The position numbers and the translations under genes were made by a program. A stretch of 64,000 nt of DNA from Chromatiales bacterium (GTDB taxonomy: Bacteria > Pseudomonadota > Gammaproteobacteria > SpSt-1174), in assembly GCA_014762505.1 (NCBI GenBank), contig JABURS010000032.1, positions 1 through 64,000 on the forward strand, written 5' to 3'. The notes under the pieces were generated by a model. It saw only the letters and a program-made list of their open reading frames with translations, made no database searches and was not told where the DNA came from. Positions 6,022-33,237 of this stretch are shown here, piece after piece. Position 1 is the stretch's first letter; each line of letters begins with the position of its first letter.

Positions 6022-6737
6022 CTAGTCCAGCCACGAGGGTTTGGCGAGCACGCACAGCGAGTCTCCGTGCCCCGCTCCTCCGCGTCGGCGATCTTGCCGA
6101 GCTTCCAGTCGCGGTGTCTCAGCATCACCTCGACCACCTGCTCCGGCTCATCGCATAGCTCGATGTAGCGCAGGTCCTCTTCGCCGATCGCGCCATGGCG
6201 CAGCATGGTGCCGCGAATCCAGTCGAGCAGTCCCTGCCAGTACTCGCTGCCGTAGAGCACCAGCGGCATGGGGTAGACCTTGTGGGTCTGCAGCAGCGTG
6301 AGCGCCTCGAAGAATTCGTCCAGTGTGCCGAAACCGCCGGGCAGGCAGACGTAGCCCATGGAGTGCTTGACGAACATCACCTTGCGCGCGAAGAAGTAGC
6401 GAAACTCCAGCGACACGTTCTGGTAGGGGTTGGGCCTCTGCTCGGTCGGCAGGGTGATATTGAGCCCCACCGAACTGCCACCCCCCTCGGCGGCCCCGCG
6501 ATTGGCGGCCTCCATGATGCCGGGCCCACCGCCGGTGATCACGGAAAAGCCGGCGGCGGCGAGGCGATGGCTGATGGTCTGCGCCGCCTGGTAATACGCA
6601 TCGTCCGGCGTGAGTCGCGCCGAGCCGAACACGGAGACGGCGAAGCCCAGGTCGGAGAGCTTGTCGAAGCCCTCGGTGAACTCACTGATGATGCGAAACA
6701 GGCGCCAGGATTCGTCGCCCTTGAGGTCCTGGATCAT
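6022..6737 (-). CDS. LOG family (TIGR00730) protein with probable frameshift near its 3' end
   Basis: Lysine-decarboxylase-like LOG proteins are Rossmann-fold enzymes; related members release cytokinin-type bases from nucleotides. The motif PGGFGTLDEFFE (PGGxGTxxE) and GGGPGIMEAANRGA are intact. Start at 6737 has GAAAGGA upstream. In the sequence as given the frame does not stop where the family ends (about 240 residues) but runs on to 5664, through the downstream gene. Adding one base in the C run at 6070-6073 gives a high-GC3 ending GDSLCVLAKPSWLD and a TAG at 6022-6024, yielding 238 residues. Either a real frameshift or a homopolymer sequencing error; the coordinates follow the corrected reading. 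Confidence 0.75.
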
Positions 6738-9551: not shown

Positions 9552-11241
9552 GAGCCACCACCCGGTCACGCCCCCCCTCCTTGGCCTGATACAGGGCGAC
9601 ATCGGCCCGCCCGATGAACTCGCCGGGCGGCCCGCCCTCGCACCATTCGGACAGGCCAAAGCTGCAGCTCAGGCGCCCGACATGCGGGAACTCCTGTGCG
9701 CGCAGCAGCGCCTGCAGCTTGTTCGCCAGCTGCTCGGCATCGGCCAGCGTGGTCACCGGGCAGAGCAGTGCGAATTCCTCGCCACCCCAGCGTGCCAGCA
9801 CATCCTGCTCACGCACGTTGTCGCCAACCAGCTGCGCAAAGGCACGCAACACCGCATCACCCGCCTGGTGACCATAGCGATCATTGATGCTCTTGAAGTG
9901 ATCGATATCCATCAGGACCAGGGACAGCGGGGAGAGATAGCGCTCGGCACGGCTGATCTCGTGACGCAGGACGTTGTTGAACTCGCGCCGATTGGCCACC
10001 CCGGTGAGGCTGTCGGTCGTGGCCAGCGCCTCCAGCTCGGCCTGCAGCTTCTCGCGCTGACGGATCTCGTGCGCAAGCTCGGCATTCGTCGCTTCCAGTG
10101 CCGCCGTGCGCTCGGCCACCATGGCCTCGAGCTCCTCCTTGCCACGCAGCAAAATGGCTTCTGCATCCTTTATGCGGGTAACCTCGGTACGCACGGAGAC
10201 GTATTTGTACGGCAGCCCTTCCGTATCCAGAAAGGGCACGATGGTCGTGGCCACCCAGTAGAGGCTGCCATCACGGCGGCGGTTGCAGATCTCCCCCTGC
10301 CAGATGCATCCCTCGGTGATGGTCTCCCACATCTGCCGGTAGAAGTCATCATCGTGCACACCGGAACGCAGCAGGCGGTGGTTGTTGCCGATCAGTTCGG
10401 CGCGGGAGTACTGGCTCACCTCGCAGAACTTGTCGTTGGCATAGATGATGTCGCCGGCCGCATCGGCAATGCTCACGATGTTGTGACGGTCGGTGGCCTG
10501 GCGCTGGAACTCGTTCTCCTTGAGCATCGCATCGAGCCGCACCGCCTGGTCCTCGATGGTGGCCGTGCCACGGGCCACCTGGCGCACCGTGAGCGCGGCA
10601 ATGCCCGCCACCAGGGCGATACCGATGGTGCCGAAAGCGAGCAACAGCCAGTAGACGCGCCGGGACAACAGGGTGGCCTGCAGGGTCTGCTCGTGCGTAC
10701 GCCCGGCATGCAAGGCCAGCGCCACCTCCAGCCGTTCGAGCATCCGTGTCTGGCGTGGCTGCACTTCCTCGACCAGCAGGCGACCGGCCAAATCGTGCTC
10801 GCCGCCACGCAGCAGATCGATGATCCGCTCCTGAAATGCGACGATCTCCAGGGCGATCTCACGCTGGCTGGCAAGCAGCGCCTGTTCCGTCGGCGGCAGC
10901 CCCAGGGCAAGCAGCTCGGACCGCGCCATGGCGAACTCGGTCCCCAGTGCGTAGAAGGTCTGCACCTTTTCTTCGAACAGGAAGGGGTCGGTCGTCTCGC
11001 TGGCCTGCAGATCGTGCAGTATCGCCAGACGTCGCCGTGCGGCGTCCAGCATGCGAAACAGGGACTGATTGGCCACCTGCTCCTCCTGCGCCACCTCGAT
11101 CAGCGACGACTGGGTGCTATGCAGACCGACCACTCCGAGCGAGACGGTGACGACCAGCGTGATGCCCGTGGCTGCGAACGCCGCCAGCAGCACCCGGCGG
11201 ATTCTGCGCGAATAGATGAATGCGGTGCGGTTGTCTGTCAC
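9544..11241 (-). CDS. membrane diguanylate cyclase (sensor - PAS - GGDEF)
   Basis: Makes c-di-GMP from two GTP. Order: transmembrane helix ~15-40, periplasmic helical sensor of about 150 residues, second transmembrane helix ~190-215, PAS domain ~250-370 with a PAC-like YVSVRTEVTRIKDAE tail, coiled coil, GGDEF domain ~400-560. The active site WGGEEFALL is intact, and no RxxD inhibitory site is seen before it. Start uncertain: GTG 11241 gives a sensible short cytoplasmic N-terminus; the longest frame begins with TTG at 11295 and lacks a ribosome-binding site. Coupled to the pentad-repeat gene. Confidence 0.88.
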   Translation of the reverse strand: MTDNRTAFIYSRRIRRVLLAAFAATGITLVVTVSLGVVGLHSTQSSLIEVAQEEQVANQSLFRMLDAARRRLAILHDLQASETTDPFLFEEKVQTFYALGTEFAMARSELLALGLPPTEQALLASQREIALEIVAFQERIIDLLRGGEHDLAGRLLVEEVQPRQTRMLERLEVALALHAGRTHEQTLQATLLSRRVYWLLLAFGTIGIALVAGIAALTVRQVARGTATIEDQAVRLDAMLKENEFQRQATDRHNIVSIADAAGDIIYANDKFCEVSQYSRAELIGNNHRLLRSGVHDDDFYRQMWETITEGCIWQGEICNRRRDGSLYWVATTIVPFLDTEGLPYKYVSVRTEVTRIKDAEAILLRGKEELEAMVAERTAALEATNAELAHEIRQREKLQAELEALATTDSLTGVANRREFNNVLRHEISRAERYLSPLSLVLMDIDHFKSINDRYGHQAGDAVLRAFAQLVGDNVREQDVLARWGGEEFALLCPVTTLADAEQLANKLQALLRAQEFPHVGRLSCSFGLSEWCEGGPPGEFIGRADVALYQAKEGGRDRVVAHA

Positions 11242-30214: not shown

Positions 30215-31429
30215 ATGCCGCCGCCCAACCCGAAACTGGCCGCCACCGACCGCTGTGTGATGTGCGGCATGTGCCTCCCGCACTGCCCCACCTACGGCAA
30301 GACGCGCAACGAGGCCGACTCCCCGCGCGGGCGCATCGCCCTGATGCAGGGCCTGAACAGCAGCCGCCTCGCCGTGGACGAGCACCTGCTCGCCCACCTG
30401 GACGGCTGCCTGGCCTGCCGCGCCTGCGAGTCGGTCTGTCCCTCGGGCGTGCCCTACGGCGAGCTGATCGATGCGGTACGCGAGGAGCTGAATGACGCCC
30501 GGCAGGCAGGGGCGGGGGCAAGACTCGGGCAGGAGTTTATCGATTCACGCCGTCTGCGGCGCGTGACCACAAAGGCCTTGCGGTTTTACCAGGCCAGCGG
30601 CCTGCAGCGGCTGGCCCGCGCCAGCGGCGTGCTGCGGGCCACCGGGCTGGCGCGGGCCGAGGCCCTGCTGCCGCGCATCGACACCGCCAACCTGCAGCCA
30701 CGGGGCGAGGGCCCGACGGTGGCGCTGTTCACCGGCTGCGCCAGCGAGGTCTTCGACCGGCGCACGCTGGCCGACACCCTCACCGTGCTCGGCGCCCTCG
30801 GCTACCGGGTCGAGATCCCGGCCACCCAGGCCTGCTGCGGGGCCATCGACCGGCACGCCGGTCGCAGCAGCCGCGCCGATGACCTGATGCAGCGCAACCT
30901 GGCCGCCTTCGATGCCCCCTACCAGGCCATCATCGGCACGGCGAGCGGCTGCACCGCCCAGCTCGCCGAGTACGACCGGGCCGGCGACGACGAACGGGGC
31001 CCGTCCTTCGCCGGGCGCGTCGTCGACGTCAGCCGGTTCCTGGCCCAGGCCCTGGCCGAACGGGAACTCAATCTCGCCCCGCTCCAGGCCCGCGTCGCCA
31101 TCCACGCCCCCTGCTCGCTCACCCACGTCCTCAAGGCCGCCGCCTGGCCACGCCGCCTGCTCGAACACATCCCGGGCCTCGAACTGCTCGACCTGCCCGA
31201 CAACGCCCGCTGCTGCGGTGCCGCCGGCAGCTACATGCTCACCCAGCCCGACATGGCCGACCAGCTCCGGGAAGACAAGCTCGCCCACCTGCGCAACCTC
31301 AGGCCGGACATCCTCGTCACCAGCAACATCGGCTGCGCCCTGCACCTGCGCGCCGGCCTCGAGGCCGAAGGCATGGCGATCGAGGCACTGCATCCGGTGT
31401 CGCTGGTGGCCAGGCAGATGGGGTTATAA
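30215..31429 (+). CDS. glcF: glycolate oxidase iron-sulfur subunit
   Basis: Electron-transfer subunit of glycolate oxidase, passing electrons from GlcD/GlcE FAD to the quinone pool. Two [4Fe-4S] motifs: CVMCGMCLPHCP (~14) and CLACRACESVCP (~69). Two CCG-type domains follow, with Cys pairs near QACCGAID and ARCCGAAGSY. Length (404) matches GlcF. No glcD or glcE is next to it in this window, unlike the usual glcDEF operon, so the partner subunits must be elsewhere. Confidence 0.85.
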   Translation: MPPPNPKLAATDRCVMCGMCLPHCPTYGKTRNEADSPRGRIALMQGLNSSRLAVDEHLLAHLDGCLACRACESVCPSGVPYGELIDAVREELNDARQAGAGARLGQEFIDSRRLRRVTTKALRFYQASGLQRLARASGVLRATGLARAEALLPRIDTANLQPRGEGPTVALFTGCASEVFDRRTLADTLTVLGALGYRVEIPATQACCGAIDRHAGRSSRADDLMQRNLAAFDAPYQAIIGTASGCTAQLAEYDRAGDDERGPSFAGRVVDVSRFLAQALAERELNLAPLQARVAIHAPCSLTHVLKAAAWPRRLLEHIPGLELLDLPDNARCCGAAGSYMLTQPDMADQLREDKLAHLRNLRPDILVTSNIGCALHLRAGLEAEGMAIEALHPVSLVARQMGL

Positions 31430-31453
31430 ATCAGGACGAGATATTGATGTGGC

Positions 31454-31510
31454 TCTATCGTTCCGGCTCACGCGCCAGCGTAACCGATCGCGTGGACCCG
31501 GTTGTTAGCG
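31454..31510 (-). repeat. degenerate integron attC site (end of cassette array)
   Basis: Minus strand: R'' core CGCTAAC (31504-31510) immediately after the stop of gene 31511-31936, then an imperfect inverted repeat (ACCGGGTCCACGCG against CGCGTGAGCCGGAACG) and an R'-like end CGATAG in place of GTTAG. The loss of the GTTAG core suggests a decayed terminal attC. Confidence 0.55.
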
Positions 31511-31936
31511 CTAATCTTCATCAGTAAACCAAGCACAACCGATGCGCTCTGTGGTGATAACCAGCACTCCTGTATCAAACGTCGCGATTGTAGCCGGCGT
31601 CCAACTGGGGCCAACATTTGGATGTTTGCGGGGGCATCCGTAGTCGCCGTTCGTGAAATACTTAGGCTTGTCACCTGAAAAGTGGCGCACAAATTCTTTA
31701 GCTAGGCCATCGGCCTCGTTCTGTGGCATGAGCTCAACGTGATATGCCATGTCTCGACTTAGCACAGTTTTCAAAACGGACACCGCATCCTGTTCGGAAA
31801 TCTCGAAATAGATACCCGGCGAATCGAATAGCCCAAATTGGGCTGCCGCCTCCTCTACGCTCGCGACCTTCGCAGGCCGAATATCAACGATGGTATCGCT
31901 ACCTCGTGCCTCGATGATTCGTGACGTTATGTCCAT
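31511..31936 (-). CDS. integron-cassette-borne protein of unknown function
   Basis: A 141-residue soluble protein. Its ATG lies three bases after the attC core GTTAGCG, and its stop runs directly into the next attC, as in mobile gene cassettes. The C-terminal half has a small Cys-containing segment (GDYGCPRKHPNVGPSWTPA) and TGVLVITTERIGCAWF. Its GC content is lower than the chromosome's. No family recognised; it may encode a stress or immunity-type function, but this is not shown. Confidence 0.6.
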   Translation of the reverse strand: MDITSRIIEARGSDTIVDIRPAKVASVEEAAAQFGLFDSPGIYFEISEQDAVSVLKTVLSRDMAYHVELMPQNEADGLAKEFVRHFSGDKPKYFTNGDYGCPRKHPNVGPSWTPATIATFDTGVLVITTERIGCAWFTDED

Positions 31937-31939
31937 TTG

Positions 31940-32000
31940 CGCTAACGTCTCGCCTCAAGCGCGCGGCGTAGTCGCGTCGCCTTGGAGGCAGTTGTTAGAT
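31940..32000 (-). repeat. integron attC recombination site
   Basis: A 61-bp site with R'' ATCTAAC (31994-32000, minus orientation) and R' GTTAGCG (31940-31946). The arms ACTGCCTCCAAGGCG and CGCTTGAGGCGAGAC pair with one unpaired base, which is the orientation-defining extrahelical base of attC. It separates genes 32004 and 31936. Confidence 0.8.
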
Positions 32001-32003
32001 TGC

Positions 32004-32306
32004 CTACTTGAGAAACAACCATAGTGCAACACAGCAAGCCATTACCAAGAAGCTAATTAATTTGTTTCGCAGCCTAATACTGCCTGGATAAAAGAAGACT
32101 GATTTCCAACCAGGAGGCCGAGGATAGCCAGACCGATCTAGCCATGCTTCTGCAAGTGCGTTTGAGAAACCCCTATCCTCAATTAACGCCTTCTTCACCA
32201 CTTCTCGTTGTTCATAAGCGTATATCTGCTCATCAACAGTTTCTTCTGTAACATCTGGATATTGCAGCAGCATCTTTCTCAATGCTTGTCGTTCATTATT
32301 ATCCAT
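32004..32306 (-). CDS. cassette-borne small protein with C-terminal membrane anchor
   Basis: A 100-residue protein: a charged helical N-terminal part (MDNNERQALRKMLLQYPDVT, then QIYAYEQREVVKKALI) and a C-terminal transmembrane segment (LISFLVMACCVALWLFL). Its stop lies three bases before the attC core. It is only 30 bases downstream of gene 32337-32720 with no full attC between them, so both probably form one two-gene cassette. Low GC. No family recognised. Confidence 0.6.
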   Translation of the reverse strand: MDNNERQALRKMLLQYPDVTEETVDEQIYAYEQREVVKKALIEDRGFSNALAEAWLDRSGYPRPPGWKSVFFYPGSIRLRNKLISFLVMACCVALWLFLK

Positions 32307-32336
32307 ATGGACTATCCCATGCGCAGGTACTCTTTG

Positions 32337-32720
32337 TTAGAGCTCTGTACCAACCAATGCATAAGGTGTCTGCTCTTCTAGCCGTGATACAAATTCCATA
32401 ACTTTGATGTAATTGGGGTGCCAATGCTCATAGTCACTATTTTTCAGCAATGAACCATTAGCCCCATACCATTCTGAAAATATTGTCTGTAGTTGTGATT
32501 TTGTTACAACTGCCACATATGCACCCCATTCTGTTTTCTTCCCGGGGCATCTGCCTGACTCAATCAGGTCAGCGACCTTAAAATATAGATTTTCACTGCT
32601 ATTTGGCAGCGGAGGTAAATTCGGGCTAATGCTGGTAGGAATAGTTCCACTCCAATTTCCACCCTCCCACTTGAAATTGGGGTCGTCCAGAGATCCTATG
32701 TAACCTTCATATATTGTCAT
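32337..32720 (-). CDS. cassette-borne protein of unknown function
   Basis: A 127-residue acidic protein, AT-rich in codon use (AATTGG, TATATT), with many aromatic residues (NWSGTIP, EWGAYVAVV, SEWYGANGS). The ATG at 32720 lies five bases after a perfect GTTAGGT integron core site at 32726-32732. A TTG two codons upstream is a less likely start. No family recognised; the composition resembles known hypothetical integron-cassette products. Confidence 0.6.
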   Translation of the reverse strand: MTIYEGYIGSLDDPNFKWEGGNWSGTIPTSISPNLPPLPNSSENLYFKVADLIESGRCPGKKTEWGAYVAVVTKSQLQTIFSEWYGANGSLLKNSDYEHWHPNYIKVMEFVSRLEEQTPYALVGTEL

Positions 32721-32725
32721 TGGCA

Positions 32726-32732
32726 ACCTAAC
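32726..32732 (-). other. integron-type core site GTTAGGT upstream of the first cassette gene
   Basis: Matches the GTTRRRY core exactly and sits five bases before the ATG of 32337-32720. Only this right half of an attC or attI is evident; I could not find the matching left arm in the next 130 bases. Confidence 0.55.
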
Positions 32733-32916: not shown

Positions 32917-32979
32917 ACGACAAAGGCCACGGTTTGCACCGTGGCCTCTGTACTTGAAGATGGTGGCCAGGGAGGGAAT
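32917..32979 (-). repeat. duplicate of terminator plus tRNA-Phe 3' tail (copy A)
   Basis: A 63-bp near-copy of 33119-33180, holding a second tRNA-Phe terminator hairpin and the last ~18 bases of the tRNA plus CCA, about 200 bp away. The two halves are near-identical; a short middle part (after the hairpin) differs. Confidence 0.8.
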
Positions 32980-33118: not shown

Positions 33119-33180
33119 ACGACAAAGGCCACGGTTTGCACCGTGGCCTTTGCGTGGAATATGGTGGCCAGGGAGGGAAT
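33119..33180 (-). repeat. terminator plus tRNA-Phe 3' tail (copy B, overlapping the real tRNA)
   Basis: The original of the duplicated segment. Just upstream on the plus strand, 33089-33106 carries an inverted copy of the tRNA T-arm (TCGGGGGTTCGATTCC), a further trace of local rearrangement. Confidence 0.8.
33124..33151 (-). terminator. terminator of tRNA-Phe
   Basis: A perfect 12-bp stem AAAGGCCACGGT/ACCGTGGCCTTT with a 4-base loop, 11 bases past the tRNA CCA. Only three T follow, within the stem end. Confidence 0.75.
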
Positions 33181-33237
33181 CGAACCCCCGACACGGGGAT
33201 TTTCAATCCCCTGCTCTACCAACTGAGCTACCTGGCC
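33162..33237 (-). tRNA. tRNA-Phe (anticodon GAA)
   Basis: A 76-base minus-strand cloverleaf with encoded CCA. Acceptor GGCCAGG pairs with CCTGGCC, the D-arm is GCTCAGTTGGTAGAGC, the anticodon stem-loop GGGGATTGAAAATCCCC carries GAA, and the T-arm is GGGGGTTCGATTCCC. It follows yggX (minus) by about 80 bases. Confidence 0.96.

Follow-up and report, generated by a model that had tools for sequence, protein, structure and literature searches.

A cassette cluster with no integron integrase gene beside it in a Chromatiales bacterium, and its possible origin by insertion in trans

CALINs are a well-known type of element, and beside those described in PMC9024848 the cluster reported here is small: with two full attC sites and one half-site it lies at the two-attC reporting threshold, and its terminal site is degenerate. 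A second point of comparison is the integration of cassettes into non-classical attG sites, which is established according to the account of Loot et al. (2024) given in PMC12444791 and PMC12901181. Set against that account, our locus is alike in its ordinary chromosomal position, in the non-att sequence before its first core and in a GNT-type target, but the case is read from the anatomy of its ends in one natural genome only. Within the same genome, the chromosomal integron on contig C13 resembles the cluster in the general type of its attC sites and in having cassettes mostly of unknown function; it also has intI and attI, whereas the cluster has neither. What is uncommon about the present locus is that both of its ends look like direct insertion into ordinary chromosomal DNA. 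We judge, with a probability of about 0.7, that a CALIN is present here in a genome which also has a complete integron, the cassettes having been inserted in trans by the integrase at an attG-type site.

attC sites and genes of the cluster

For the detection of attC sites we built a covariance model of our own, distinct from that of IntegronFinder and trained independently of the locus on 19 sites: 13 adjoining intI in other genomes of the class (a congener included) and six from other contigs of this genome. All 19 lie outside the window (the whole 64-kb stretch of contig C32 that was analysed). The variable terminal parts of the sites were trimmed before alignment with MAFFT. Because the training sites were picked partly by pairing, pair counts describe the model and are no proof of it; the home-made palindrome score was used for this choice only, and by itself it separated sites from shuffles poorly.

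The model found exactly two full attC sites in the window, the next-best match having 14.0 bits. The attC-like site at 31940-32000, on whose detection by a covariance model the original prediction had been staked, was the best match (31.4 bits, E 2e-5 in the window), and the site it had described as degenerate (31454-31510) was second with 23.7 bits. Both half-site profiles likewise ranked the two sites first and second of about 128,000 positions. The at least two covariance-model sites of a CALIN are therefore present, and the cassette ORFs between them share one orientation. The DNA fold of the best site pairs its arms and is modestly better than that of shuffled sequences (z -1.3); attC stems are imperfect by nature.

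Table 1. Features of the cassette cluster and its flanks (window coordinates)
Feature	Position	Strand	Basis or remark
Left flank: glcF-like iron-sulfur oxidoreductase gene	30215..31429	+	ORF, own-genome protein search; name from sequence
Terminal attC, R' = GATAGAG where GTTRRRY expected	31453..31510	-	Covariance model
ORF3, 141 aa, uncharacterised	31511..31936	-	Open reading frame
Intact attC	31940..32000	-	R'' CTAAC...GTTAG R', L''/L' arms with extrahelical base
ORF2, 100 aa, uncharacterised	32004..32306	-	Open reading frame
5' half-attC CTCTAACAAAGAGTACCTGCG	about 32321..32342	-	Between ORF1 and ORF2; 3' half missing
ORF1, 127 aa, uncharacterised	32337..32720	-	ATG 5 nt past first core
First core GTTAGGT	32726..32732	-	Cluster start; probably target G + cassette TTAGGT
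Right flank: tRNA-Phe	33162..33237	-	ARAGORN

The three small co-oriented ORFs of the original prediction are genuine open frames, their stops abut the sites as it had described, and the cluster is AT-richer than its surroundings, with 47.7% GC in 31457-32732 against 67.2% for the whole window; the 1.3-kb stretches with the lowest GC in the window overlap this interval. The proposed placing of each ATG three to five nucleotides past a core holds for ORF1 and ORF3, whose starts follow a core closely, the usual arrangement in cassette genes, but fails for ORF2, which has no core before its start, half of the middle attC being deleted. That middle site had been overlooked. Its remaining half, CTCTAACAAAGAGTACCTGCG, scored 11.5 bits with the 5'-half profile (training minimum 12.5) and ranked 7 of about 128,000 positions; the 3' half is absent and the full model gives no match there. 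The TAA stop of ORF1 lies inside the half-site, and the loss of the 3' half has joined ORF1 and ORF2 into a single unit.

Searches of Pfam, NCBIfam, PHROG and PADLOC gave no significant match for ORF1, ORF2 or ORF3, in keeping with the earlier view that all three proteins are uncharacterised, and searches with cassette proteins gave no homologue in the genome_contigs or viral_contigs collections. One other genus supplied two genomes with distant, near full-length homologues of ORF1 (28-33% identity), chromosomally placed and with no attC around them; a third genome of the class has a partial one. Its predicted structure (pLDDT 70, pTM 0.69) had no significant match in the PDB. ORF2, for which the plasmid and viral collections searched held no homologue, has a hydrophobic C-terminus with a single TM helix as judged by eye. 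ORF3 has one partial homologue, plasmid-encoded in Eleftheria terrae (54% over 56 aa), and there the remaining similarity continues in another frame; its single-sequence structure prediction reached a pLDDT of 38.

On the tRNA side of the cluster there is a 63-bp direct repeat of 90.6% identity (32917-32979 and 33119-33180, 139 bp apart) that takes in the tRNA-Phe 3' end together with the hairpin downstream of it, possibly the footprint of an element at tRNA-Phe or of a lost tandem tRNA. An Rfam search of the region returned the tRNA and sub-threshold matches only.

The resident integron, other arrays and relatives

A TIGR02249 search of the genome found a single integron integrase above cut-off, at C13:3426-4364, with 481.6 bits against a cut-off of 265. 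The gene has no internal stop and reads outward from a minus-strand cassette array; the cassettes, with three attC sites, lie upstream of intI on the opposite strand and reach the contig end. The same search detected no intI on C32, in agreement with the prediction of a cluster without a visible integrase. With no attI in the window either, the cluster lacks both of the components, intI and attI, that stand beside the array in a complete integron. The locus is confirmed as a CALIN. The suggestion that it might be an outlying part of an integron was right in the sense that the complete integron sits on another contig, C13. Across the class, 57 of 143 sampled genomes carried an integron integrase above cut-off.

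Genome-wide, nine attC sites were found at E <= 10, three on C13, two on C42, the two in the window and one each on C33 and C5; six of these nine are training sites, the other three being the window pair and the site on C5. C42 harbours a second array with an attI copy but without intI; here the attI-like sequence is at 10742-10813 and the cassettes extend to about 6040, broken by an element that by eye is IS3-like. The C5 site (631-720) is flanked by an NYN-like gene, so judged by eye, and by a second cassette ORF; the contig is 3.6 kb long and has a GGGACAGTAT-type repeat at its start.

The congener has the same integron platform at the same V-ATPase-side locus, with 86.5-89.7% nucleotide identity and different cassettes, which indicates an ancestral platform of the genus that has its home elsewhere than at the window locus. 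Its intI (contig C46 of that genome, 2563-3535) is in two overlapping frames, probably through a frameshift or else a sequencing error in the draft genome. A lipoprotein-like gene directly after an attC in the congener (6094-6522 of the same locus) is closely homologous to a chromosomal gene on C33 of the present genome, at 1864-2293 of the locus concerned and about 1.6 kb from another attC. The empty site was not found in the single congener compared, whose locus is rearranged: its tRNA-Phe side is conserved, but glnE, which in the present genome is on C24, adjoins tRNA-Phe in place of glcF. ORF1 and ORF3 are absent from this congener and from one other family member, so that the conserved presence in relatives that would have spoken against the original prediction was not seen.

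Ends of the cluster and its origin

The GTTAGGT before ORF1 is, as predicted, a perfect core, but it ends no attC: the 21 nt before it are not attC-like and rank only 2411 with the 3'-half profile. An attI or degenerate attI at this position, taken from a MAFFT block, was ruled out by shuffle scores and an anchored comparison, as local attI scores stay inside the shuffled range and only 12-13 of 53 anchored positions match the genome's attI; by contrast, the attI copies of C13 and C42 align at 87.5% over 72 bp. The lack of any attI or attC half at this position favours insertion at a non-att site over loss of the integrase from an array already standing here, and the earlier description of the locus as a chromosomal cassette remnant is thus only partly right.

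The IntI crossover falls after the G of the core, and insertion at a chromosomal GATAGAG would therefore leave precisely G/TTAGGT at one end and G/ATAGAG at the other (slash, crossover). We propose that the C13 integrase, or a relative of it, recombined a folded attC bottom strand with a secondary chromosomal site of attG type, whose target core GATAGAG would have lain 24 bp past glcF (24 bp separate the glcF stop from the last attC). A single insertion event of this kind would explain both end oddities, and the pre-insertion site would be expected to read ...GTGGCTCTAT/CAGCTTCGCTGC... across the junction, or ...GATGTGGCTCTAT/CAGCTTCGCTGCAAC... on the plus strand. The locus has the GNT target core and non-att flanks of an attG, and GAT triplets are described cleavage points in secondary-site reactions (PMC10127599). 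The R' GATAGAG still pairs with R'' CGCTAAC at five of seven positions, as a point-mutated normal core also would; insertion would be indistinguishable from a mutated core combined with a deletion that stopped at a core. If the locus is taken to be a CALIN, the sequence evidence makes insertion in trans at a secondary site the probable origin, and the fully specified version we hold at even odds: a natural, end-resolved case in which the integrase of the resident integron placed cassettes in an ordinary chromosomal site whose core is GAT rather than GTT.

The attC between ORF1 and ORF2 would later have lost its 3' half by deletion. With this half gone and the core of the terminal attC poor, the array appears partly frozen; at most ORF3, which the last two attC sites enclose, could still be excisable. 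As the locus lacks a Pc promoter and attI, it is uncertain whether the cluster is expressed.

Distinctly less likely is an origin as the relic of a complete integron formerly at this locus, with intI and attI deleted and the terminal core and inter-cassette attC mutated, although decay of this kind does occur in the group: C42 keeps its attI copy and cassettes in the absence of intI, the C13-like intI of the congener looks frameshifted, and the middle attC of the window is clearly decayed. Such a relic sits poorly with the lack of any attI, intI or attC half ahead of the first core, with a perfect GTTAGGT whose upstream sequence is non-att, as the deletion would have to have stopped exactly at a core, and with an ancestral platform that lies at the V-ATPase locus and not at this one.

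That the array block was moved here by general rearrangement, through homologous recombination or transposition and not by an integrase, would agree with the exchange of glnE for glcF beside tRNA-Phe relative to the congener and with the duplication of the tRNA-Phe 3' end 185 bp upstream of the cluster. We nevertheless consider it improbable, given that the cluster begins and ends at recombination cores, that there was no sign of an IS at either end and that the genome holds no second copy of the block. Least credible is the idea that these are ordinary AT-rich genes whose palindromes arose by chance: taken alone, the main attC does not fold exceptionally, but the two best model matches of the whole window each lie against an ORF end, in the same orientation, and with the covariance-model scores and half-site ranks given above chance palindromes are effectively refuted.

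CALINs are common, and it is still under discussion whether they originate by loss of the integrase or from off-target insertion in trans. With both ends readable to the base and one intact integrase in the genome, this locus is a usable test case for CALIN origin, and it adds three uncharacterised cassette proteins. If insertion at a GAT core did take place here, it would support the view that some CALINs arise off-target and not by loss of intI.
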